Positions 18,965 through 31,444 of a stretch of 64,000 nucleotides of DNA are shown here, in pieces. Below the pieces are notes generated by a model, which was not told the origin of the DNA, ran no database searches, and saw only the letters and a program-made list of their open reading frames with translations. Position 1 is the stretch's first letter. Each line of letters opens with the position of its first letter. The translations under genes and the position numbers were made by a program. Source of the stretch: Cryptosporangium aurantiacum. Its GTDB lineage: Bacteria > Actinomycetota > Actinomycetes > Mycobacteriales > Cryptosporangiaceae. The stretch spans positions 1 to 64,000 of the forward strand of contig NZ_FRCS01000014.1 in the NCBI RefSeq assembly GCF_900143005.1. Reading direction: 5' to 3'.

Positions 18965-19741
18965 TCACACCCCAAAAACCTCCCGGAAGCGGCGGACGGC
19001 CAGGTCGGGGTCGCCGCTCGCCCAGGCCTCCATGCCGACGACGCCGGAGTACCCGGACGCGGCGAGAGCCCGCGCCACCGCCGGGTAGTGGATCTCGCCG
19101 GTGCCCGGTTCGCACCGGCCGGGGACGTCGGCGACCTGGATCTCCCCCACCCACGGCAGGCAGCGCCTGGTCAGCTCGACGAGGTTCCCCTCGCCGATCT
19201 GGGCGTGGTAGAGGTCCAGGTTCAGCCGCAGGTAAGGGCTGTCCACGGCCTGCACCAGCGCCAGCGTGTCCGCCGCACGGGCGAACGGCGTGCCCGGGTG
19301 GTCGACCGCGGTGTTCAGGTTCTCCAGCGTGAAGACGACGTCGTGCTCGGCGCCCAGGTCGGCGATCCGGCGCAGCGTGTCCACCGCCGCAACCCAGTCC
19401 GGCCCGGTCAGATCCTCGGCCGGCCGGACCGGCAGTCCGTTCGGGTCCAGCCCGGTGCCGTGCAGGTTCAGGTTCGGACGACCCAGGCGACGCGAGGCCC
19501 CCACCGATTCGGCGGCGGTACGCAGCAGCTCCTCCGCGCCGTCCCGGTCGACGAGTTCGCCCCGCACGTACCCGGTCATCGACGTGAATCGCGCGCCGGT
19601 CGCGGCCAGCGCGTCCAGGTCCTTCGTCGTCCAGTCCCAGATCTCCACCGCGAAGCCGCGTTCGTGCAGCTCGGTCGCGCGGTCGGCGATCGGGCGGTCG
19701 CGGAAGACCATTTCGGCGCAGACCGCGAGGGTGAACGTCAC
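18965..19741 (-). CDS. hyi: hydroxypyruvate isomerase family TIM-barrel protein
   Basis: This 258-residue xylose-isomerase-like TIM barrel has the Hyi length and the diagnostic segment IQVADVPGRCEPGTGEIHY, with metal-binding Glu in FTLENLNT and His in NLNLHGTG. Hyi interconverts hydroxypyruvate and tartronate semialdehyde; relatives epimerise keto-sugars. The GTG start at 19741 overlaps the stop of the preceding dehydrogenase (GTGA). Membership in a sugar-importer operon with two Gfo/Idh/MocA dehydrogenases suggests it isomerises an oxidised cyclitol or sugar. That specific substrate is inference. Confidence 0.75.
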   Translation of the reverse strand: MTFTLAVCAEMVFRDRPIADRATELHERGFAVEIWDWTTKDLDALAATGARFTSMTGYVRGELVDRDGAEELLRTAAESVGASRRLGRPNLNLHGTGLDPNGLPVRPAEDLTGPDWVAAVDTLRRIADLGAEHDVVFTLENLNTAVDHPGTPFARAADTLALVQAVDSPYLRLNLDLYHAQIGEGNLVELTRRCLPWVGEIQVADVPGRCEPGTGEIHYPAVARALAASGYSGVVGMEAWASGDPDLAVRRFREVFGV

Positions 19742-20790
19742 AGCGTCACCGGCCGGTTCGTCGTCACCGACTCGACGCACGCCAGCGCCACCGCGAGCGC
19801 ACGGCGGGCGTCCCGGCCGGTGACCGCCGGCTCCCGGCCGGCCCGGACGGCGTTCGCGAACTCGGCGAACTCGGCCGTGTACGCGTCGAGGAACAGCTCG
19901 ACGTCGCCCCGGACGGTGTTCACTCGACGCCCGTCCGGTCCGAAGTGGGTCAGGGACGAGGCGGCCTGATCGCCCACGGTGACCATCCCCGCCGACCCGA
20001 ACACCTCGGCCCGGACGTCGTAGCCGTAGGTCGCGGAGAAGCTCGCCTCCGCGACCGCCCTGGCGCCGTTGTCGAACGTCAGCACGGTGACCGCGGTGTC
20101 GAGCAGGCCCGCCGACTTGTACTCCGGCGCCACCAGTGCGTCGGCGGTCGCGTACACCTCGACGACCTCGGCGTCCGGGTTGAACCAGAGCAGCGTGTCG
20201 AAGTCGTGGATCAGCGTCTGGGTGAAGATCGTCCACGGCGGCACCGCGCCGGGGTTCGCGAGCCCGGGGTCGCGGGTCAGCGAACGCAGCAGCTGGGGCG
20301 TGCCCACCCCGCCGGTGGCCACCACGTGGCGGGCGGCCGCGAACCCGGCATCGAACCGCCGGTTGAAGCCGACCTGCAGCGGCACGTCCGCAGCGGCGGC
20401 CAGCGCGCGGTCGGCCTCCTCGAGCGTCATCGACATCGGCTTCTCGCAGAAGATCGCCTTGCCCGCGCCCGCCGCCGCGACGATCAGCTCGCAGTGCGCG
20501 GTGCTGGACGCCGCGATCACCACGGCCTCGACCTCGTCGGAACCGATCAGCTCGGCGGGAGAACCGAACGCCTTGACGCCCAGTTGCGCGGCGAGCCGGG
20601 ACGCAGCGGCCGGCACCGCATCCGCGACCCCGGCCAGCTCCACGGTCGCCACCCGCCGGGCGAGGATCGCGGCGTGCGACGCCCCGATCCGCCCGGCCCC
20701 GATCAACCCGACCCGCACCGGCCTCACCGGCCCGGTCGACTGCCCCGGCCCGGCTGGCTCGGCGGCGAGGCCCGCCGCGCCCGCGGTCAC
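19738..20790 (-). CDS. Gfo/Idh/MocA oxidoreductase, inositol 2-dehydrogenase-like
   Basis: This 350-residue NAD(P)-dependent dehydrogenase has a Rossmann start RVGLIGAGRIGASHA (about residues 26-40), the family EKP motif in AIFCEKPMSM, and the substrate segment QTLIHDFDTLLW with catalytic Asp/His. This combination resembles myo-inositol dehydrogenases (IolG). The GTG start overlaps the previous stop (GTGA) and leaves a 24-residue Ala/Gly/Pro lead before the fold. A start further in is possible, but coupling favours this one. It is one of three such enzymes in the island. Confidence 0.8.
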   Translation of the reverse strand: MTAGAAGLAAEPAGPGQSTGPVRPVRVGLIGAGRIGASHAAILARRVATVELAGVADAVPAAASRLAAQLGVKAFGSPAELIGSDEVEAVVIAASSTAHCELIVAAAGAGKAIFCEKPMSMTLEEADRALAAAADVPLQVGFNRRFDAGFAAARHVVATGGVGTPQLLRSLTRDPGLANPGAVPPWTIFTQTLIHDFDTLLWFNPDAEVVEVYATADALVAPEYKSAGLLDTAVTVLTFDNGARAVAEASFSATYGYDVRAEVFGSAGMVTVGDQAASSLTHFGPDGRRVNTVRGDVELFLDAYTAEFAEFANAVRAGREPAVTGRDARRALAVALACVESVTTNRPVTL

Positions 20791-21932
20791 AGCGTCACCC
20801 AGCGGCGTTCGGCGATCGACGTCGCCATCGCCTCGACCGTGCGCGCCGCCACCAGCGCGTCAGCGATCGTCGCGCCGACCTGCACGCCGCCGACGATCGA
20901 CGTCGCGAGCCGATGCGCCTCGATCACCTTCAGGTCGTCGTACCCCATCGCGTTCCCGGCCGCGGGCTGGAACCGCGCCAGCTCCCCCGCGTCGCGGCCC
21001 ACCAGCACGGTCGACCAGGACGCGTCCTGGTAGTCCTGGTCGAGGCACACCCGCAGCTCCCCCATCCGTCGGAAATCCCAAGCCACCGCGCCGCGATCGC
21101 CGTGCACGACGATCTCGTAGGCGCTCTGCTCGCCCACGGCCACGCGCGACGCCGTCAGCGTCCCCCTGGCCCCGGACGCGAAGCGCAGCAGCGCCCCGAT
21201 GTAGTCCTCGTTCTCCACCGGCCCGTGCGGCCCGGTCCCCCGCGCGAAATGGGACCCGGCCGCGGCGGGCTTCGGCCTCGACGCGATGAACCGCCCCTCG
21301 TCCGCGACCAGCTCGGTGAGCTCTCCGACCACGTACCGGGCCAGGTCCGTCCCGTGGCACACCAGATCGCCGAGGACCCCGCTGCCCGCCGTCTCGGTGA
21401 AGAACCGCCACGACAGCGCGCCCTGCGGGTGGGCGGAGTAGTCGGCGAGGAACCGGACGTCCACCTGCTCCACCCGGCCGAGCCGCCCGTCGGCCACCAG
21501 CGACCGCGCGAGCGACACCGCCGGCGCGTTGCGGTAGTTGAAGCCCGCCGCCGAGCACACCCCGGCCGCCTCCACGGCGGCCGCGATCTCGGCGGTCTCG
21601 GCGGCGTTGCGCCCGGCGGGCTTCTCGATCCAGAGATGCTTGCCGGCCCGGGCGACCGCGACCCCGACGTCCCGATGCACGTGGTTGGGGCCGGTCACCG
21701 AGACGACGTCGAGGTCGTTCCGGGCGACCAGCACGCGCCAGTCGTCCACAAAATCGTCGAAGCCGTAGGACGAGGCCAGCGCCCGCAGCGACGGAACCGG
21801 ATCGGCGGCCGCGACCAACCGAGGCCGCAGGCCGAGGTCGGGGTAGTGCTGCGGTAACCGGGTCCAGGCCCGGGCGTGCACCTGTCCCATCCACCCGAGC
21901 CCGACCACGGCAACCCGGAGTTCGTCAGTCAC
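20787..21932 (-). CDS. Gfo/Idh/MocA family oxidoreductase
   Basis: This 381-residue dehydrogenase has the Rossmann turn [12 protein letters not shown] near residue 10, the EKP motif in [10 protein letters not shown] and the catalytic-region segment [16 protein letters not shown]. It is longer and clearly different from its neighbour at 19738, so they probably act on different epimers or successive steps. The GTG start overlaps the ABC ATPase stop and its stop overlaps the next start. Both dehydrogenase genes of this operon end with the same codons for VTL before TGA, which supplies the GTGA overlaps. The substrate is not proven. Confidence 0.8.
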
Positions 21933-22765
21933 GTACGGAGTTCCTTCACCTCGGACTCCAGCGCCTTCGCGACCTCGGAATCGCGCCCGAGTTCTTCCGC
22001 CAGTTCGTGGCTGAGCGCCTCCAGCTCGGAGCCGCCGGCCATCGCCGCGGTCAGCTCGTGCAGCGACATCTCGGTCTTCGGGTAGTCGCCCATGCTGCGG
22101 CCGCGGCGCAGCAGCATGAACCGGTCGCCGACCGGATACGCGTGATGCGGGTTGTGCGTGATGAAGACGACGCCGAGCCCGCGGTCACGCGCCCGGGCGA
22201 TGTACCGCAGCACGACGCCGGACTGCTTGACGCCGAGCGCGGCGGTCGGCTCGTCCAGGATCAGCACCCGCGCCCCGAAGTACACGGCACGGGCGATCGC
22301 GACGCACTGCCGCTCGCCACCGGAGAGCGTGCCGATCGGCTGGTCGACGTCGCGCAGGTCGATGCCCATCTGCGACAGCTCGGACTTCGTCGTGCGCTTC
22401 ATGAAGTCGACGTCCAGCCGCTTCCACGGCCCCCGGCCCTTGGTGGGCTCGGAGCCGAGGAAGAAGTTGCGCCAGACCGGCATCAGCGGCACCACCGCGA
22501 GGTCCTGGTAGACCGTGGCGATGCCGAGCGCCAGCGCCTCGCGCGGGCTGGAGAAGTGGCGCTCTTCGCCGTCGACGGCCAGCCGGCCGTCGGTGTGCTC
22601 GTGGGCTCCGGCGAGGATCTTGATGAACGTCGACTTGCCCGCGCCGTTGTCGCCGAGGACGCAGGTGACCTCGCCGGGGTGCACGGCGGTGGTGACGTCG
22701 GCCAACGCGATGATGTTGCCGTACCGCTTGCCGATGTCGGTGACTTCGATGATGGGCGTGGTCAT
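21929..22765 (-). CDS. sugar ABC transporter ATP-binding protein
   Basis: This 278-residue ATPase has Walker [10 protein letters not shown] (38-46), Q-loop VYQDLAV, signature LSGGERQ, Walker [11 protein letters not shown] and H-loop THNPHHA. A single nucleotide-binding domain of this FrcA type powers ribose/inositol-class importers as a homodimer. The C-terminal 40 residues are charged and helical. The ATG overlaps the permease stop (ATGA). It works with the permease and binding protein encoded just upstream. Confidence 0.9.
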
Positions 22766-23811
22766 CGGGATCGCTCCGCTCGCCTGCGTACCGCTTCGTT
22801 GAGGAGCACCGCGCCCAGCAGCATCACGCCGAGGAACGCCTTGAGCCAGTTGTTGTCCCAGCCCGCGTAGACGATGCCCTGGTTGGCCATGCCGTAGATC
22901 AGCGCGCCGAGCGCCGCCCCGACCGCCGACCCGTAACCGCCGGTGAGCAGGCACCCGCCGACGACCGCGCAGATGATGTAGATGAACTCCTGGCCGACGC
23001 CGGTGTTGCTCTGCACGGTGGACGTGGTGAACAGCAGCAGCATGCCCACCAGCCAGCCGGCGCCCGCGCTGGTCATGAACAGCCCGACCTTGGTGCGGGC
23101 GACCGGCACCCCGACCTGGCGGGCGGAGGTCTGGGCGCCGCCGACCGCGAAGATCCAGTTGCCGACCCGGGTCTTGAGCAGCACCCAGGTCGCGAGCGCG
23201 GTGACCAGGATCCACCAGAACACCGACGCGTAGACCCGGCCGCCCGCGATCTCGATGTTCGAGCCGAACACCGCGTGCGGCTGGTCGTAGAACGGCACGT
23301 CGGTCATGCCCTGGATCGCGACCTGGCCGATGATCACCTTGACCAGCGCCAGGTCGATGCCCTGCAGGACGAAGAACGTCCCGAGCGTGACGATGAAGCT
23401 CGGCAGGCCGGTCCGCATCACGAGCACGCCGTTGACGAACCCGACCGACAGCGCCAGTACCAGCGCGACCAGCATCGCGGCCCAGATGTTCAGGCCCCAC
23501 TGGGTGGTCATGACGCCGACCGCGAGCCCGGTGAACCCGGTCATCGCCCCGGCGGAGAGGTCGAACTCCCCGCCGATCATCAGGAGTGCGACCGCCACCG
23601 CCATGATGCCGATCGTCGATGCCGACCGTAACCAGGTGCTCGCGCCGCTCGCGGTCGCGAACGTGTCGGTGATGACCGCGAAGAACACGAACACCGCGAC
23701 GGCAGCGATCAGCGCGCCGACTTCCGGCCGCTTGAGCACCTTGCCGAGGGCCGAATTACCGGCGACCCGCTCGTCCCGCTGTTCGGGTTTGCCGACGGTG
23801 GCGGTCGCCAT
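22762..23811 (-). CDS. sugar ABC transporter permease (RbsC/FrcC type)
   Basis: This 349-residue membrane protein has about ten helices and the family segments [16 protein letters not shown] (near residue 80) and [19 protein letters not shown] (near residue 280). These are characteristic of carbohydrate uptake transporter 2 permeases, which take up ribose, xylose, inositol and related compounds. The ATG at 23811 starts [11 protein letters not shown], one base after the binding-protein stop. The frame is open further upstream, but that would overlap the neighbour heavily. Confidence 0.9.
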
Positions 23812-23812
23812 G

Positions 23813-24775
23813 TCAGCGGGTTCCCTTGGCCGCGAACTCGCCCACCGCGTCGGCGTTCTCCTTGGTGATGAACGCCGGGCCGGAGTAGACCGGCTGGCCG
23901 CCACCGAAGTCGTTGCCGTTGATGCTCTTCAGGTACAGCGCGGTGACCGCCGCGTAGCCCTGCACGAACGGCTGCTGGTCGACCGCGAACTCGATCTTGC
24001 CGGACTTGATGTTCGTGATGACGTCCTGCGAGAGGTCGAACGTGGCGACCTTGGCCGAGCTACCCGACTGCTCCACCGCGGCGACCGCGTCGATCGCGTA
24101 CTGGCCGCCGAGCGTGAGGACGCCGTCGATGGTCTTGTCGGCCTGCAGCTTGGACGTGATCGTCGCCTGGACCGCGTTGTCGTCGGTGCCGTCGACCTGC
24201 AGGTTCGTCACCTTGCCGCCCATCGTGGAGGTGACCGCCTTGCAGCGCTCCTCCAGACCGACGTTGCCCGCCTCCTGGATCACGCACAGCGCGTTCTTCC
24301 AGCCGGCGGCCTTGAGCCGGGTGCCGACCGCGGCGCCCGCGATCTGCTCGCTCTGTCCGATGTGGGTCAGCGCGCCGAACTCCTGCCACTTCTCGATGCC
24401 AGAGTTGATCGTGATCACCGGGACGCCCGCGGCGACCGCGTTCTTCACGGACTGCTCGAGGCCGTCGGGGTTGGCCATCGAGACGATGACGCCGTCGACC
24501 TTGTCGGCGACCGCACCGTCGATGAGCTGGGACTGCTTGGCCGGGTCGGGGTCGGAGGAGTACTCGACCTTCACCCCGTAGTCCTTTCCGGCACGTTCGG
24601 CACCGGACTTCACCCGGTCCCAGAACGCGTCACCGGGGGCGCCGTGCGTGACGACCGCATACGTCAGGTCTAAGTCGCTCGCTTCGTCAGGGCCTTCCTC
24701 CTGGCCGGTGCCACTGCACCCGGCGACGGCGAGGAACAGGCCGACGATCACTCCGGCGACGGCGAACTTCTTCAT
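23813..24775 (-). CDS. sugar-binding lipoprotein of CUT2 ABC importer
   Basis: This 320-residue lipoprotein has a signal peptide ending in the lipobox LAVAGC (Cys20). A periplasmic-binding-protein type 1 fold follows: YAVVTHGAPGDAFWDRVKSG, VDGVIVSMANPDGLEQ and IDGVLTLGGQYAIDAVAA. It captures a monosaccharide or cyclitol outside the cell and delivers it to the permease encoded next. The ATG at 24775 has AGGAGA eight bases before it. It is the first gene of the operon and lies behind the promoter and operator at 24866-24908. Confidence 0.9.
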   Translation of the reverse strand: MKKFAVAGVIVGLFLAVAGCSGTGQEEGPDEASDLDLTYAVVTHGAPGDAFWDRVKSGAERAGKDYGVKVEYSSDPDPAKQSQLIDGAVADKVDGVIVSMANPDGLEQSVKNAVAAGVPVITINSGIEKWQEFGALTHIGQSEQIAGAAVGTRLKAAGWKNALCVIQEAGNVGLEERCKAVTSTMGGKVTNLQVDGTDDNAVQATITSKLQADKTIDGVLTLGGQYAIDAVAAVEQSGSSAKVATFDLSQDVITNIKSGKIEFAVDQQPFVQGYAAVTALYLKSINGNDFGGGQPVYSGPAFITKENADAVGEFAAKGTR

Positions 24776-24865
24776 TGAGTTCTCCTGGGGCGCGTTGTTC
24801 GCGTGTTCGCGATACTCCGGGGCTCCGATGCGGGCTTCGGGGCCGATCGTTGGCTGAGTGTGGTA

Positions 24866-24908
24866 GACACCACAGACGGTGTCAAGAGTTTGTCCGGACA
24901 TATTGACA
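24866..24908. promoter_or_regulatory. divergent promoter/operator of the cyclitol transport operon and gntR
   Basis: The minus-strand operon has a consensus -35 TTGACA (24880-24885 on plus). The plus strand has TTGACA at 24903-24908. Between them lies the perfect palindrome TGTCCGGACA (24891-24900), which recurs in variant form at 25700-25709 before the catabolic operon. A second symmetric pair, GACACC (24866-24871) and GGTGTC (24878-24883), overlaps the minus -35. The likely binder is the GntR protein encoded at 24954; that is inferred. Confidence 0.65.
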
Positions 24909-24953
24909 ACCCGTTACGCTCGATCTGTGACCGGTGATCACGGGAGAGGCGCA

Positions 24954-25694
24954 ATGCACCCGCACACCCACATCACGCTCGACCGGAGCAGCCCGGTCCC
25001 GCTCTACTTCCAGGTCGCCGAGCAGCTCGAAGAGGCGATCCTCACCGGCACGCTGGGGGCCGGTGAGCGGATCGGCAACGAAGTGGCGCTCGCCGCCGAC
25101 CTCGGACTGTCCCGTCCTACCATGCGCCAGGCCATCCAGGTGCTGGTCGACAAGGGACTGCTGGTGCGCAAGCGCGGTGTCGGCACCCAGGTCGTGGCCG
25201 GCCGGGTGCATCGCCCGCTGGGGCTGACCAGCCTCTACGACGACCTGATGAAGGCCGGCCAGCGGCCGCGGACGGTCGTGCTGAAGATGGACGTCGTCTA
25301 CCCGGACGACCAGGTGCGGGCGGAGCTGCGCCTGGCCGACGACGCCCAGGTCTGGTACTTGGAACGGCTGCGCTCGGTCGGCTCCGACCCGCTCGCGCAC
25401 ATGACGAACTACCTGCCGACCGACGTCGTCGACCTGGCGGCGGTCGACCTCGGCGAGACCGGGCTGTACGAGGCGATGCGCCGGGCCGGCGTGGTGATGC
25501 GGGTGGGCAGGCAGCGGATCAGCGCCCGCCGCGCCGAGGCCGCCGAGGCGCGGATGCTCGGCGAGTCCGAGGGTGCGCCGCTACTCACGATGGAGCGCAC
25601 GACCTACGACGACGCCGGCCGCGCGGTCGAGTACGGCACCCATGCGTACCGCCCCGATCGTTACTCATTCGAGTCCACGCTGGTGGACCGTTGA
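24954..25694 (+). CDS. GntR-family regulator with UTRA domain (HutC type)
   Basis: This 246-residue repressor has a winged helix at residues 10-80 (VPLYFQVAEQLEEAILTG, ALAADLGLSRPTMRQAIQVL, GVGTQVVAGRV). A UTRA ligand-binding domain follows (VWYLERLRSVGSDPLAHM to YRPDRYSFE). It most likely senses a phosphorylated or free cyclitol intermediate and controls both flanking operons. The ATG at 24954 has GGGAGAGG just upstream. A GTG at 24927, six bases after a possible -10 TACGCT (24915-24920), would give nine extra residues on a leaderless message. Confidence 0.85.
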   Translation: MHPHTHITLDRSSPVPLYFQVAEQLEEAILTGTLGAGERIGNEVALAADLGLSRPTMRQAIQVLVDKGLLVRKRGVGTQVVAGRVHRPLGLTSLYDDLMKAGQRPRTVVLKMDVVYPDDQVRAELRLADDAQVWYLERLRSVGSDPLAHMTNYLPTDVVDLAAVDLGETGLYEAMRRAGVVMRVGRQRISARRAEAAEARMLGESEGAPLLTMERTTYDDAGRAVEYGTHAYRPDRYSFESTLVDR

Positions 25695-25699
25695 CTTAA

Positions 25700-25744
25700 T
25701 GTCCTGACAAAGTCTTGACGCGATTCAGGGCTCCGTCCTAGCGT
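25700..25744 (+). promoter_or_regulatory. operator and promoter of the cyclitol catabolic operon
   Basis: TGTCCTGACA (25700-25709) differs by one base from the palindrome at 24891-24900. It is followed by -35 TTGACG (25715-25720), an 18-base spacer and -10 TAGCGT (25739-25744), about 50 bases before the first start codon. The arrangement suggests control by the GntR protein encoded immediately upstream. Confidence 0.6.
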
Positions 25745-25794
25745 TCTCAGCGGCACCGACGCCCCGCGGTGCCGTCGACCGCGACGGAGGCAGC

Positions 25795-26691
25795 ATGGCC
25801 CGAAGCGCTTTCGCTGACAGCCTGGCCGAGGTGACCGAGATCCGCGCCCGCGAGCCGGGCCGGGTCGCTGCTCTGCTGGCCGCCCGCCGCAAGCGCGCGA
25901 CGCTGCCCGCCGACGGCCGCCTGATGCTGGTCGCCTGCGACCACCCGGCGCGGGGTGCGCTGGCGGTGCGTGGGCGGGCGGACGCGATGGCCGACCGCGC
26001 CGACATGCTGGCGCGATTACGCACCGCGATCGACCGGCCCGGCGTCGACGGGCTGCTCGCCACCGCGGACGTGCTCGAGGACCTGCTGCTGCTCGGCGCG
26101 CTCGAGGACAAGGTCGTCGTCGCGTCGATGAACCGCGGCGGGCTGGCCGGAAGCGCGTTCGAGCTCGACGACCGGATGACCGCCTACGACGTCCAGGGCA
26201 CGATCGACGCCGGGTTCAACGGCGCGAAGATGCTGCTGCGCGTCGACCTGGACGACGCAGCCTCGGTCACCACGCTGGAGTCCTGCGCCCGGGCGATCAC
26301 CGACCTGAGCCGCGCCGGGCTGCTCGCGATGGTCGAGCCGTTCCTGTCCCGGCGGGTCGACGGCAAGGTCGTCAACGACCTCTCCCCCGACGCGGTGATC
26401 CGGGCCGTGCACATCGCCCAGGGGCTCGGCGCGTCCAGCGCCTACACCTGGATGAAGCTGCCGGTGGTCAAGGACATGGCCCGGGTGATGACCGCGACCA
26501 CGCTGCCGACGCTGCTGCTCGGCGGCGACCCGACCGGGCACCCCGACGAGACGTACGCGGAGTGGGCGAAGGCGCTCGCACTGCCGTCGGTACGCGGTCT
26601 GGTCGTGGGGCGGGCGCTGCTGTACCCGCCCGACGACGACGTGGTCGCCGCGGTCGACACCGCGGTCTCGCTGGTGCGGGCGGCGGCATGA
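25795..26691 (+). CDS. Cgl0159-family (beta/alpha)8 aldolase-like protein
   Basis: This 298-residue protein resembles the Cgl0159 family found in actinobacterial inositol clusters. Features are LMLVACDHPARGA near residue 45, the Asp-rich VDGLLATADVLEDLL, MNRGGLAGSAFELDDRM, a Lys in GFNGAKMLLRVD and the C-terminal phosphate-site-like LGGDP. It probably replaces IolJ, cleaving the 6-phospho-5-dehydro-2-deoxygluconate to dihydroxyacetone phosphate and malonate semialdehyde. That step is inference from family context. It is the first gene of the operon, and its stop overlaps iolB (ATGA). Confidence 0.75.
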   Translation: MARSAFADSLAEVTEIRAREPGRVAALLAARRKRATLPADGRLMLVACDHPARGALAVRGRADAMADRADMLARLRTAIDRPGVDGLLATADVLEDLLLLGALEDKVVVASMNRGGLAGSAFELDDRMTAYDVQGTIDAGFNGAKMLLRVDLDDAASVTTLESCARAITDLSRAGLLAMVEPFLSRRVDGKVVNDLSPDAVIRAVHIAQGLGASSAYTWMKLPVVKDMARVMTATTLPTLLLGGDPTGHPDETYAEWAKALALPSVRGLVVGRALLYPPDDDVVAAVDTAVSLVRAAA

Positions 26692-27545
26692 ACGACTGGT
26701 TCCGTCCGGCGGGGTCGGCCGCGGCCGACGGGTTCGACGTGGTCGTCACACCGCAGAACGCGGGGTGGGGGTACTCGTCGCTGCGGGTGCTCACGCTCGA
26801 CTCGTCCCGGGAGATCACGACCGGGCCGGAAGAGATGCTGGTGGTTCCGCTCGCGGGCGGTCTGACCGTCACGGTCGGCGACGAGTCGTTCCGACTCGAG
26901 GGGCGCTCGGACGTGTTCGCGGGCCCGAGCGACTTCGCCTACCTGCCGATCAACACGTCTGCGCACCTGCATGCGGACGCCACGGCGCGGGTCGCGCTGT
27001 GTGGGGCGCGCACCGAGCGGGTGCTGCCGTTCCGGTACGGGCCCGCGGACGCTGTTCCCGTCGAGTTGCGCGGTGCGGGCAACGCGAGCCGCCTGGTACG
27101 CAACTTCGGCACGGTCGGCGCGTTCGAGACCGGGGCCCTGATCGCCTGCGAGGTGCTCACCCCGGCCGGCAACTGGTCCAGCTACCCCGCGCACAAGCAC
27201 GACGAGGCGACCGACACCGAGTCCGAACTCGAGGAGATCTACTACTTCGAGATCGGGTCGGGGCCGGCCGGCGAACCCGGCTTCGGTTACCACCGCACGA
27301 GCACCTCGGCGCGCGGCGAGATCGACGTCCTGGCCGAGGTCCGCGACCGCGACGTCGCGCTGGTGCCGTACGGCTGGCACGGCCCGTGCATCGCGGCGCC
27401 CGGATTCGACATGTACTACCTCAACGTCATGGCCGGTCCCGGCGCCGAGCGCGCCTGGCTGATCTCCGACCACCCGGACCACGCCTGGGTTCGCGGAACC
27501 TGGACCGACCAACCCATCGACCCCCGGCTGGAGGGCAGGCGATGA
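26688..27545 (+). CDS. iolB: 5-deoxy-glucuronate isomerase
   Basis: This 285-residue bicupin enzyme converts 5-deoxy-glucuronate to 5-dehydro-2-deoxy-gluconate in inositol breakdown. The metal-site region SSYPAHKHDE with LEEIYYFEI and the second motif VALVPYGWHGPCIAAPG are present, as is the C-terminal MYYLNVMAGPG. The ATG at 26688 overlaps the aldolase stop and the gene's own stop overlaps iolD, so the three are translated together. Confidence 0.95.
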   Translation: MNDWFRPAGSAAADGFDVVVTPQNAGWGYSSLRVLTLDSSREITTGPEEMLVVPLAGGLTVTVGDESFRLEGRSDVFAGPSDFAYLPINTSAHLHADATARVALCGARTERVLPFRYGPADAVPVELRGAGNASRLVRNFGTVGAFETGALIACEVLTPAGNWSSYPAHKHDEATDTESELEEIYYFEIGSGPAGEPGFGYHRTSTSARGEIDVLAEVRDRDVALVPYGWHGPCIAAPGFDMYYLNVMAGPGAERAWLISDHPDHAWVRGTWTDQPIDPRLEGRR

Positions 27546-29443
27546 GCGAGACGAGCGGGACGATTCGGCTAACGGTCGCCCAGGCGACCGTGCGGTTCCT
27601 CAGCGTCCAGTACTCCGAACGCGACGGCGTGCAGCAGCGGCTGATCGCCGGGTGCTTCGGCATCTTCGGCCACGGCAACGTGGCCGGGCTCGGCCAGGCG
27701 CTGCTCCAAGCCGAACTCGACGATCCGGAGCAGCTCCCGTACATCCTCGGGCGCAACGAACAGGCGATGGTGCACACCGCGGTCGCGTATGCCCGGATGA
27801 AGGACCGGCTGCAGACCTACGCGGTCAGCACGAGCATCGGCCCCGGCGCGACGAACATGGTCACCGGCGCCGCGCTGGCGACCGTCAACCGGCTGCCGGT
27901 GCTGCTGCTGCCCGCCGACACGTTCGCCGACCGCTCCGCCGCCCCGCTGCTGCAGGAGCTCGAGGTTCCCTGGTCCGGCGACGTCACGGTCAACGACGCG
28001 TTCCGGCCGGTCTCGAAGTACTTCGACCGGGTGCACCGCCCGGAGCAGCTCCCGAGCGCGCTGCTGTCCGCGATGCGCGTGCTCACCGACCCGGCCGAGA
28101 CCGGCGCGGTCACGGTCTGCTTCCCGCAGGACGTCCAGGCGCAGGCCTACGACTGGCCGGTCGAGTTCTTCGCCCGCCGCGTGTGGCGGGTGGCTCGCCC
28201 ACTACCCGAACAAGCCGATTTGGACGACGTGGCGACGCTGATCCGCGGCGCACGCCGCCCGCTGATCGTGGCCGGCGGCGGGGTCGGGTACTCCGGTGCC
28301 TCCGACGCGCTCGCCCGGTTCTGCGCGGCCACCGGGGTCCCGGTCGGGCTCACCCAGGCCGGCAAGGGCGCACTGCCGTTCGACCACGAGCAGTGCCTCG
28401 GCGCGATCGGCTCGACCGGCACGACCGCCGCCAACGCCATCGCCCGCGACGCCGACCTGGTGATCGGTATCGGAACGCGGTACTCCGACTTCACGACGGC
28501 CAGCCGCACCGCGTTCGCCGCGGACGGCGTCCGGTTCGTGAACGTGAACGTCGCGCCGATCGACGCGGTGAAACACGCGGGTGTCGCGGTCCGCGCGGAC
28601 GCGCGGGAGACGCTCGACGCGCTGTTGCCGCTGGTCGTGGGGTACGCGGTCGACCCGGAGTACCGGGAGCAGTACACCCGGCTGGACGCTGACTGGAACG
28701 CGCGCGTGCGCCAGGCCTACGACGCCGACGAGCTGACGCAGAGTGCGGTCATCGGCGCTGTGAACGACCTGTCCGACCCGCGTGACGTCGTCGTGTGCGC
28801 CGCCGGATCGATGCCCGGTGACCTGCACAAACTGTGGCAGGTGCGGGACCCGAAGGGCTACCACGTCGAGTACGGCTACTCGTGCATGGGCTACGAGATC
28901 GCCGGTGGCCTGGGGGTGGCGCTGGCCTGCCCGGACCGGGACGTGTTCGTGCTCGTCGGGGACGGGTCCTACTTGATGATGGCGACCGAACTGGTCACCG
29001 CACTCCAAGAAGGCCTCAAGGTCATCGTCGTTCTGGTCCAGAACTACGGCTTCGCGTCGATCGGGGCGCTGTCGGAGTCGCTCGGCTCGCAGCGCTTCGG
29101 CACCCGCTACCGCTACCGCACGAAGACCGGCCGGCTCGACGGTGACCTGCTCGCGATCGACCTCGCCGCGAACGCCGCCAGCCTCGGCGTCGACGTCGTC
29201 CGGGTCACCGATCGCGCCGGGCTGGCCGACGCGATCGCCGCCGCGAAGGCGTCCCCGGCCAGCACGGTCATCCACGTGGAGACCGACCCGTTGGCGGGCG
29301 GCGCCCCGGACTCCGAGTCCTGGTGGGACGTCCCGGTCAGCGAGGTCTCGTCACTGGAGTCGACCCGCACCGCTTATCAGACCTACACCGAGCACAAGGC
29401 CACTCAGCGCCCGTACCTGCGGCCCTCGAAGGACCTCTCATGA
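27542..29443 (+). CDS. iolD: 3D-(3,5/4)-trihydroxycyclohexane-1,2-dione acylhydrolase (ThDP-dependent)
   Basis: This 633-residue ThDP enzyme opens the inositol ring after dehydration. The catalytic Glu lies in ILGRNEQAMVH (about residue 68). The ThDP/Mg motif runs from VGDGSYLMMATEL to VQNYGFASIG (about residues 475-505). The central FAD-like domain includes VAGGGVGYSGA. The length matches IolD (about 630-640). ATGA overlaps join it to iolB. Its own stop overlaps a 29-codon frame that leads into the next gene. Confidence 0.95.
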   Translation: MSETSGTIRLTVAQATVRFLSVQYSERDGVQQRLIAGCFGIFGHGNVAGLGQALLQAELDDPEQLPYILGRNEQAMVHTAVAYARMKDRLQTYAVSTSIGPGATNMVTGAALATVNRLPVLLLPADTFADRSAAPLLQELEVPWSGDVTVNDAFRPVSKYFDRVHRPEQLPSALLSAMRVLTDPAETGAVTVCFPQDVQAQAYDWPVEFFARRVWRVARPLPEQADLDDVATLIRGARRPLIVAGGGVGYSGASDALARFCAATGVPVGLTQAGKGALPFDHEQCLGAIGSTGTTAANAIARDADLVIGIGTRYSDFTTASRTAFAADGVRFVNVNVAPIDAVKHAGVAVRADARETLDALLPLVVGYAVDPEYREQYTRLDADWNARVRQAYDADELTQSAVIGAVNDLSDPRDVVVCAAGSMPGDLHKLWQVRDPKGYHVEYGYSCMGYEIAGGLGVALACPDRDVFVLVGDGSYLMMATELVTALQEGLKVIVVLVQNYGFASIGALSESLGSQRFGTRYRYRTKTGRLDGDLLAIDLAANAASLGVDVVRVTDRAGLADAIAAAKASPASTVIHVETDPLAGGAPDSESWWDVPVSEVSSLESTRTAYQTYTEHKATQRPYLRPSKDLS

Positions 29444-29529: not shown

Positions 29530-30434
29530 TCACGATAGGTTCTGCTCCTGACTCCTGGGGCGTCTGGTTCGCCGACGACCCGGCACAGACCCCGGCCGAT
29601 CGCTTCTTCACCGAGGTGAAAGCCGCCGGCTACGACTGGATCGAATTAGGACCGTACGGCTACCTGCCGAAGGACCCGGTCGCGCTGCAGGAGGCTCTGG
29701 AGGCCCACGGGCTGCGGGTCTCGGCGGGCACGGTGTTCTCCGCGCTGCACCGCCCGGACTCCTGGGACGCGGTGTGGCAGCAGGTCACCGACGTCGCGTC
29801 GCTCACCAGGGCGGTCGGCGGGCAGCACATCGTCGTCATCCCGGACCTCTACCGGCACCACAAGACCGGCGAGAACCTGGAGAGTCCGACGCTCACCGCC
29901 GAGCAGTGGCGGAAGCTCACGACCGACACCGACGAACTCGGCCGCCGGATCCTGGAGGAGTACGGGCTGCACGTCCAGTTCCACTCGCACGCCGACAGCC
30001 ACGTCGGCTACCAGCGGGACATCGAGCGGTTCCTCGCCGACACCGACCCGCGGTACGTGAACCTCTGCCTGGACACCGGGCACGTGGCCTACTACGGCGG
30101 CGACAGCCTGGAGCTGATCCGGCGCTATCCGGAGCGCATCGGGTACCTGCACCTCAAGCAGGTCGACCCGGAGATCGCGAAGCAGGTGGAGGCCGAGGAT
30201 CTGGTGTTCCCGGAGGCCGTGCGGCGGGGCGTGATGTGTGAGCCGCCGAACGGCGTCCCCGATCTGGGCGCGGTGCTCGACGCGGTCGGGACGCTCGACC
30301 GCGACCTGTACGCGATCGTCGAGCAGGACATGTACCCCTGCGAGCCGGAGCGACCGCTGCCGATCGCGCGCCGCACCCACACCTACCTGGCCGGTTGCAG
30401 CGGAGCGCCGATCTCGCTCGGGAGCCCGTCGTGA
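29526..30434 (+). CDS. IolE-like inosose dehydratase / sugar phosphate isomerase family
   Basis: This 302-residue TIM barrel begins [17 protein letters not shown], typical of inosose dehydratases. Metal ligands can be read in [28 protein letters not shown] and the late Glu in [10 protein letters not shown]. IolE removes water from scyllo-inosose to feed IolD, so the location right after iolD fits. The ATG at 29526 has GGAGG eight bases upstream. Because hydroxypyruvate-isomerase-like relatives are close, I give the specific reaction moderate confidence. Confidence 0.8.
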
Positions 30435-31444
30435 GCGCCCTGCGGGTCGCCGTGCTCGGCGTCGGGGTGATGGGCAGCTACCACGCCGAGGCGCTGGCCG
30501 GGCGGATCTCGCACGCCCGCGTCACCGTGGTCAGCGACGCCGACACCGCGCGCGCCGAGCGCGTCGCCAAGTCCGTGGACGCCCGGGTGGAGGCCGATCC
30601 GTTCGCCGCGATCGCCGCCGACGACGTGGACGCGGTCGTGATCGCGTCGCCGGGGCCCGCGCACGAGGCGCAGGTGCTGGCCTGCCTGGACCGGCGCATC
30701 CCGGTGCTCTGCGAGAAGCCGCTGACCACCGACATCGCGACCGCGTACCGGATCGTCCAACGCGAGGCCGAGCTGGACGCGCCCCTGGTGCAGCTCGGTT
30801 TCATGCGGCGGTTCGACGCCGAGTACGCCGGGCTGCGCGCGCTCGTGGCCTCGGGTGAGCTCGGGGCGCCGCTGCTGCTGCACTGCGTCCACCGCAATCC
30901 CGCGCAGACCGACACGTTCGACTCCGAGATGATGATGCGGGACTCGGTCGTGCATGAGGCCGACGTCGCCCGCTTCCTCCTCGGTGAGGAGATCGTCGCG
31001 GTGTCGGTGAAGCGCCCGCAGGCCACGTCGCTGGCGCCGACGGGCGTGAGTGACCCGATGCTCGTGCTGATGGAGACCGCGTCCGGCCGGCTGGTCGATG
31101 TCGAGATCTTCGTCCGTACCGGGGTGGCCTACGAGGTCCGGACCGAGCTGGTCGCCGAGCACGGCAGCGCGATGATCGGGCTCGACCAGGGTCTGCTGGT
31201 CCGGCGTGCGGGTGGCGCCTGGGGCGGGCAGCTGGCCGGTGGTTTCGTGGAGCGGTTCGCCGCCGCGTACGACACCGAGTTGCACCGCTGGGTGCAGGCC
31301 GCGCGGCACGGCACGATCGACGGGCCGGGGACCTGGGACGGGTATGCCGCGGTCGCGGTGTGCGAGGCCGGGGTCGAGGCGGTGCGCAGCGGTGAGCGGG
31401 TTCCGGTGCGTCTCGGTACCCGTCCGGTGCGCGTAGCGGCGTAA
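30431..31444 (+). CDS. iolG: inositol 2-dehydrogenase-like Gfo/Idh/MocA oxidoreductase
   Basis: This 337-residue enzyme has IolG length and motifs: Rossmann turn [18 protein letters not shown] in [24 protein letters not shown] and the catalytic [16 protein letters not shown]. It oxidises myo-inositol (or a stereoisomer) with NAD to scyllo-inosose. The GTG at 30431 overlaps the preceding stop (GTGA). It is the third Gfo/Idh/MocA enzyme of the island. Which isomer each enzyme uses cannot be told from sequence. Confidence 0.8.

Follow-up and report, generated by a model that had tools for sequence, protein, structure and literature searches.

IolR of Bacillus is a DeoR-type regulator and is not of the GntR type. 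The operator consensus of SCO6974 from Streptomyces coelicolor is reportedly (A/T)TGT(A/C)N(G/T)(G/T)ACA(A/T), and the motif of IolR from C. glutamicum is said to be KGWCHTRACA; the letters of these operators were not found in the literature passages that name the two regulators. By its title, the report on SCO6974 describes a GntR-type repressor of myo-inositol catabolism genes (Yu 2015). The IolR passages of PMC9603128 describe a GntR-type repressor of the inositol uptake and breakdown genes of C. glutamicum and name IolT1 and IolT2 as the inositol transporters of that organism. Release of the repressor by an intermediate of inositol breakdown is the feature in which the IolR systems of Bacillus subtilis and Sinorhizobium, in the passages that deal with them, resemble the scheme proposed here; the Sinorhizobium regulator is RpiR-like by title and not GntR-type. 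For the HutC subfamily of GntR proteins, the relevant passages of Suvorova 2015 give the operator consensus NyGTMTAKACNy, with GT and AC four bases apart, and report weaker extra boxes 7-12 nt from the centres of GntR sites, which are a precedent for the accessory box described below.

Judged from its sequence, the present locus looks like an ordinary actinobacterial inositol control system, found in one more species. It resembles that of SCO6974 in having a GntR-type inositol regulator and two sites that fit the reported 12-bp core consensus, a likeness judged by operator. With C. glutamicum it shares a predicted GntR-type repressor of inositol genes, but an ABC transporter stands in the place of IolT1 and IolT2. 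Less expected in comparison with the known operators would be a fixed phase to the -35 box and, at a distance of 8 bp, a GT(C) box in the role of accessory half-site: the consensus reported for SCO6974 spans only the 12-bp core, whereas here the fixed -35 gap, the GT(C) box and an unlinked iolC target are added to it.

Gene content of the locus

The window, that is, the whole 64-kb stretch of Cryptosporangium aurantiacum DNA that was analysed, carries a GntR/UTRA gene at 24954-25694 (+). By sequence and profile matches, its neighbours are an inositol-type transport operon, encoded by the minus strand, on one side and an iol catabolic operon, encoded by the plus strand, on the other. The GntR/UTRA gene product of 246 aa, an IolR-type regulator for which orthologues were found, has the domain make-up of the HutC subfamily, with an N-terminal GntR helix-turn-helix domain (PF00392, 54 bits) and a C-terminal UTRA domain (PF07702, 126 bits). 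None of the 23 named NCBIfam GntR equivalog models (HutC, PhnF, LSA1692 and others) scored above its cut-off (best 116.9 bits versus 275), and the only inositol-breakdown model among these 23, rhizopine MocR, reached 38.9 bits versus 650.

The catabolic operon begins with a Cgl0159-like gene (25795-26691, +; PF22649, 414 bits), which is followed on the same strand by iolB for 5-deoxy-glucuronate isomerase (26688-27545; TIGR04378, above cut-off), a gene for a TPP enzyme (27548-29443; TPP_enzyme N, M and C) called iolD-like from its context, an iolE-like gene for an inosose dehydratase/isomerase (29532-30434; TIGR04379 at 151 bits, below its cut-off, and PF01261) and a Gfo/Idh/MocA dehydrogenase gene (30437-31444; profile match); a PfkB kinase was also matched by profile among the plus-strand genes to the right of the regulator. 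On the minus strand, the transport operon comprises genes for a rhizopine-type substrate-binding protein of a sugar/cyclitol ABC transporter (23813-24775; PF13407; NF052284 at 211 bits, below cut-off), an ABC permease (22762-23811; PF02653), an ABC ATPase (21929-22771; PF00005), a second Gfo/Idh/MocA dehydrogenase (20787-21932; profile match) and an iolG-like inositol 2-dehydrogenase (19738-20790; TIGR04380 at 306 bits, below its cut-off of 355). The gene content of both operons is that of myo-inositol type catabolism, and genes for Cgl0159, IolB, IolD-like and IolE-like proteins, dehydrogenases and the substrate-binding protein adjoin the regulator, as is characteristic of an IolR of the SCO6974 type.

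The two putative operators and their promoters

Putative operator 1 has the perfectly palindromic core TGTCCGGACA at 24891-24900 (extended form TTGTCCGGACAT, 24890-24901), and putative operator 2 has the core TGTCCTGACA at 25700-25709 (extended form ATGTCCTGACAA, 25699-25710), five bases past the iolR stop codon. They are the sole places of the pattern TGTCNNGACA within the window. The preliminary description had located both 10-mers at these positions with the GntR/UTRA gene between them, and the sequence bears this out, together with both domains of the encoded protein. It had also set operator 2 upstream of the -35 box of the catabolic operon; the position holds, and the distance is five bases and not six. 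This box, TTGACG (25715-25720, +), is followed after an 18-bp spacer by the -10 box TAGCGT (25739-25744, +), and operator and box together form an exact match to the composite TGTCNNGACAAANNNTTGAC, described below (25700-25719). On the other side of the regulator gene, the -35 box TTGACA of the transport operon (24880-24885, minus strand) likewise lies 5 bp from operator 1 and completes an exact composite (24881-24900, minus); the GAC of this box and that of the operator core are 11 bp apart, and a candidate -10 box, CACACT (24862-24857), was read from the sequence at a spacer of 17. A sigma-70 scan of 23500-27000 returned no promoter; its rules may be too strict for promoters of this kind. 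The -35 box of the catabolic operon is overlapped by a GT-CTTG-AC look-alike, AGTCTTGACG (25711-25720, +), which is centred 11 bp from operator 2 and is a possible weak second dimer site.

Operator 1 had been described as lying between two divergent TTGACA boxes. Both boxes are present and the minus-strand one fits as the transport -35; the one on the iolR side (24903-24908, +) is probably not the -35 of iolR, because no TANNNT is found 16-18 bp behind it in the window sequence, and the picture of two divergent TTGACA promoters around operator 1 was therefore dropped. The nearest TANNNT, TACGCT (24915-24920, +), lies 6 bp behind the box and 14 bp past the core of operator 1. If TACGCT, a candidate for the iolR -10 box, has this role, the corresponding -35 region would coincide in part with the operator core. 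The iolR-side box, taken in minus-strand orientation, would instead be an accessory half-site, its GTC being 8 bp from the core GTC. For a comparison with other loci, near-duplicates were collapsed from 110 to 64, and 11 Streptomyces-like loci were counted apart and not scored for GAC or TANNNT, which left 53 non-redundant loci (window included). TANNNT occurs 11-14 bp past the core in 23 of these 53. GAC is kept at the offset of the iolR-side box in 32, although TTGAC is found there in only 10, as would be expected of an accessory half-site; we read the window's box in this way, and not as the iolR -35, with modest confidence. A TANNNT lies 24-26 bp past the core in 12 of these loci, which with TTGAC at +2 amounts to a spacer of 16-18 bp, so that in relatives of the Aeromicrobium kind the iolR-side box may be a real -35 box.

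Both window sites fit the consensus reported for SCO6974 exactly; operator 2 (TGTCCTGACA) is also an exact fit to KGWCHTRACA, and operator 1 has one mismatch. The HutC layout, GT-N4-AC in which the base next to GT is M and the one next to AC is K, is found in GTCCGGAC and GTCCTGAC alike. Its central TA is not present at the two window sites, which have CG and CT. The 97 sites of the second set of loci described below differ from the general HutC operator in the same way and share with it GT and AC four apart, with C and G inside: their central two bases are CG in 48, AG/CT in 34, CA/TG in five, AT in three, AA/TT in three, AC/GT in two and TA in two. The earlier suggestion that GTCCGGAC stands for a variant class of operator is thus not supported; only the central TA is free, and sites that fit both the reported SCO6974 and IolR operators and the HutC layout do not make up a new motif class.

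Conservation and the composite element

That the palindromes are chance matches in a promoter stretch richer in AT might be argued from counts of the bare motif. The two places of TGTCNNGACA in the window compare with a mean of 0.94 in shuffled sequences, 26 of 100 shuffles having two or more, and in the genome of 9.58 Mb the bare 10-mer occurs at 35 places versus 24 for the reversed control. As it was not above chance in either count, the bare 10-mer was dropped as evidence, which is carried instead by position, conservation and the extended element. The strict sites of orthologous loci other than the window, 57 of them distinct, were made into a position weight matrix (maximum possible score 26.3 bits, with eight core letters fixed by the way the sites were chosen). 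Operators 2 and 1 scored 24.9 and 24.5 bits; the third-best place in the window scored 11.2, and the best score over 20 Markov copies of the window was 15.5 bits. The 12-bp consensus WTGTMNKKACAW, the operator reported for SCO6974, is found at eight places of the genome (11 strand matches versus 2 in the control). They include both window sites and two places on contig C2, one before iolC and one before a sugar ABC transporter, which are described below. The other four, on contigs C4, C6, C9 and C30, have no adjoining inositol gene in the ORF lists; those on C4 and C6 overlap the first ~30 bases of ORFs with predicted starts and are taken as probable chance matches, and that on C30 (L061) lies between predicted ORFs.

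Conservation was followed in two sets of loci. The first comprised 49 orthologous loci besides the window's own, a part of the matches (the best 30 per search), and the second the best 80 of 585 confirmed loci, mostly from Aeromicrobium, Streptomyces, Nonomuraea and other actinobacteria. In the first set, 39/49 loci had the strict TGTCNNGACA no more than 250 bp from the regulator gene (53 sites in 24.5 kb), versus 0 in 35 kb of gene and 0 in 120 kb of other flank; a Markov control gave a mean of 0.37 and a maximum of 3 over 300 runs. These near-gene counts are independent of locus orientation except for three bases. In the second set, 72 of the best 80 loci had the strict core within 300 bp of the gene (97 sites in 47.8 kb), versus 0 in 58 kb of genes and 3 in 569 kb elsewhere. 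Two loci are common to both sets, which together comprise 127 distinct loci; in 109 of these TGTCNNGACA adjoins the regulator gene, and in none is it located within the gene. The motif is conserved in related islands, and the claim that one operator, used by the GntR/UTRA protein, is common to both cyclitol operons gains support from these loci. Such conservation, with none in gene bodies, and the restriction of the composite to genomes with the regulator leave a chance origin of the sites with next to no probability.

The strict site was absent from ten of the 49 loci and from eight of the best 80. Eight of the first ten have a looser TGT-N4-ACA, for example TGTCATAACA or TGTTAAGACA, within 300 bp either side, and L024 and L047 have none there; among the second eight, four have the looser form and L088, L099, L123 and L140 do not. 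L024 belongs to the window's own genus, and its homologue, 52% identical and without TGT-N4-ACA in its 300-bp flanks, is perhaps a paralogue with another operator. The Streptomyces loci of the second set encode homologues 56-61% identical to the window regulator and have the same operator in nearly all cases (L124 lacks it). In 27 of the best 80 loci, no iol gene other than SBP/IDH1 was matched in the flanks (up to 4 kb a side), so the regulon appears to be scattered there. Regulator and operator without a matched flanking iol gene are seen, for example, in Nonomuraea (L103, L105, L107, L108 and L120).

Wider consensuses were derived from oriented loci; L026 was left out of this, of the looser-site check and of the iolR-side counts, since its motif gave no orientation. 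Upstream of iolR (40 sites, 19 genera) the consensus is tGTCAA.AgTT-TGTCa.GACA-TA.TGAC.TC, and downstream (12 sites, 6 genera) it is TcGTCC.AA-TGTCCTGACA-AA.T.TTGACgc. By their letters, the two are one element seen from its two ends, with a GT(C) box 8 bp to one side of the core and TTGAC at a gap of 5 on the other; the element points away from iolR, or toward the downstream operon. The composite TGTCNNGACAAANNNTTGAC occurs at 61 places in 49/296 genomes of the class, versus 0 for the reversed control, and in the genome under study the window's two sites are its only occurrences. All 49 genomes with the composite carry an orthologue of the regulator (E up to 1e-45; 92 genomes do), and it was found in 0/204 of the others (Fisher p 1e-30, a nominal value because the genomes are related).

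This distribution also bears on the possibility that one or more other GntR/UTRA paralogues of the cell use these sites. At least one further gene of the genome, GntR-like as read by eye, has its own TTGTATTGACAA upstream (L060:2807-2818; C9:104306), perhaps as the operator of that regulator. Use of the sites by a paralogue is nevertheless very improbable, given that the composite is absent from 204/204 genomes without an orthologue of the present regulator and that the sites adjoin this regulator gene in most loci.

Genes behind the composites were examined in the best 30 loci, which cover 32 of the 61 places. A script picked one ORF per composite by codon bias and a start no more than 400 bp away; it returned none for L178, and the 31 ORFs scanned include two from the window. 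Fourteen matched iolC, 12 iolG, three the rhizopine-type substrate-binding protein (one being the window's) and one iolE (E up to 1e-20; not all above the curated cut-offs, e.g. one iolG at 291 bits versus 355), and the remaining one is the window's own Cgl0159 gene. Across the same 32 places (window included twice), the base 8 bp ahead of the core G is itself a G in 94%, and the full GTC is present in 14. The hexamer [TC]ANNNT, which lies outside the searched pattern, follows the composite TTGACA in 20/32 places, at a spacer of 17 (8) or 18 (12) and at none of the neighbouring spacers from 13 to 20; TTGAC is therefore most likely a true -35 box. In iolG loci such as L172, L175 and L179, no more than ~6 bp separate the likely -10 box from the start codon of iolG, which may thus be transcribed without a leader.

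When the gap between core and TTGAC was left free (1 to 12), 83 matches were obtained in 57 genomes (reversed control about 16), with a gap of 5 in 53, a gap of 6 in 14 and the rest scattered. The 53 matches with a gap of 5 all come from genomes that have the regulator; nine matches fell in nine genomes without the regulator, none of them at gap 5, and were scattered. A distance fixed in this way would also suit a protein that binds the same sites and activates, or both activates and represses, by contact with sigma region 4 or the alpha subunit from a position directly upstream of the -35 box; if transcription starts 7 bp behind the -10 box, the centre of the operator 2 core would be ~46 bp upstream of the start. 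Activation by IolR is kept at low weight for this reason and is improbable: the GntR-type IolR of C. glutamicum is described as a repressor in the IolR passages of PMC9603128, promoters with [TC]ANNNT 17-18 bp behind TTGAC in 20 of 32 cases hardly need an activator, and a -35 box that also serves as a half-site would explain the fixed gap equally well. In 19/61 composites, operator 2 of the window among them, a GT is placed such that the -35 box is at the centre of a second GT-N4-AC, a count inflated by related genomes; this suggests two dimers side by side at part of the sites. More tentatively, and with somewhat better odds against than for, the functional unit may be a directional composite of ~30 bp, GT(C)-(8)-TGTCNNGACA-(5)-TTGAC, in which a dimer site, an accessory half-site and a -35 half-site 11 bp away are combined and which would mark inositol operons throughout the class.

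Proposed control and the unlinked iolC gene

The preferred reading, to which we assign a probability of about 0.9, is that the palindromes are operators of the intervening IolR-type GntR/UTRA repressor of inositol use, which would act on the two structural promoters and on the promoter of its own gene. This reading is based on sequence and gene content, on conservation, on the geometry of the promoters and on the co-occurrence of element and regulator; the role as a repressor is proposed because IolR is reported as a repressor generally and in C. glutamicum (IolR passages of PMC9603128) and SCO6974 by title (Yu 2015). A regulator dimer on each core would cover the -35 region 5 bp away and so keep RNA polymerase off both structural promoters, and operator 1, which overlaps the likely iolR promoter, would provide autorepression. 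Binding of an inositol-breakdown intermediate to the UTRA domain would then release the repressor.

The same reading would extend the control of this regulator to iolC, which is not linked to the two operons, and perhaps to another ABC transporter. iolC is found on another contig (C2:67104-68027; TIGR04382 at 377 bits, above the cut-off of 300), with an operator core ~48 bp upstream of its longest-ORF start (C2:68096-68107; L057:4097-4108). GTC precedes this core by 8 bp, as in the composite; TTGAC is absent at gap 5, and the core TGTCTTGACA itself contains TTGACA. Another consensus site, 4 kb from iolC (C2:72105-72116; L057:8106-8117), lies before a sugar ABC transporter operon with a binding protein of PF13407, perhaps the second inositol transporter of the regulon; its other neighbour is a gene read by eye as acireductone-dioxygenase-like.

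The composite, carried in 49 of 49 cases by genomes that have the regulator, is a signature by which inositol promoters may be picked from sequence alone in many actinobacteria, and it would make iolC, although unlinked, a member of the regulon. Should the composite act as one unit, IolR would read the promoter itself, the core and the -35 box being separated by one turn of the helix (11 bp); and if the -35 box is itself a half-site, these promoters would be a clean case of a GntR dimer set against RNA polymerase on one helical face.
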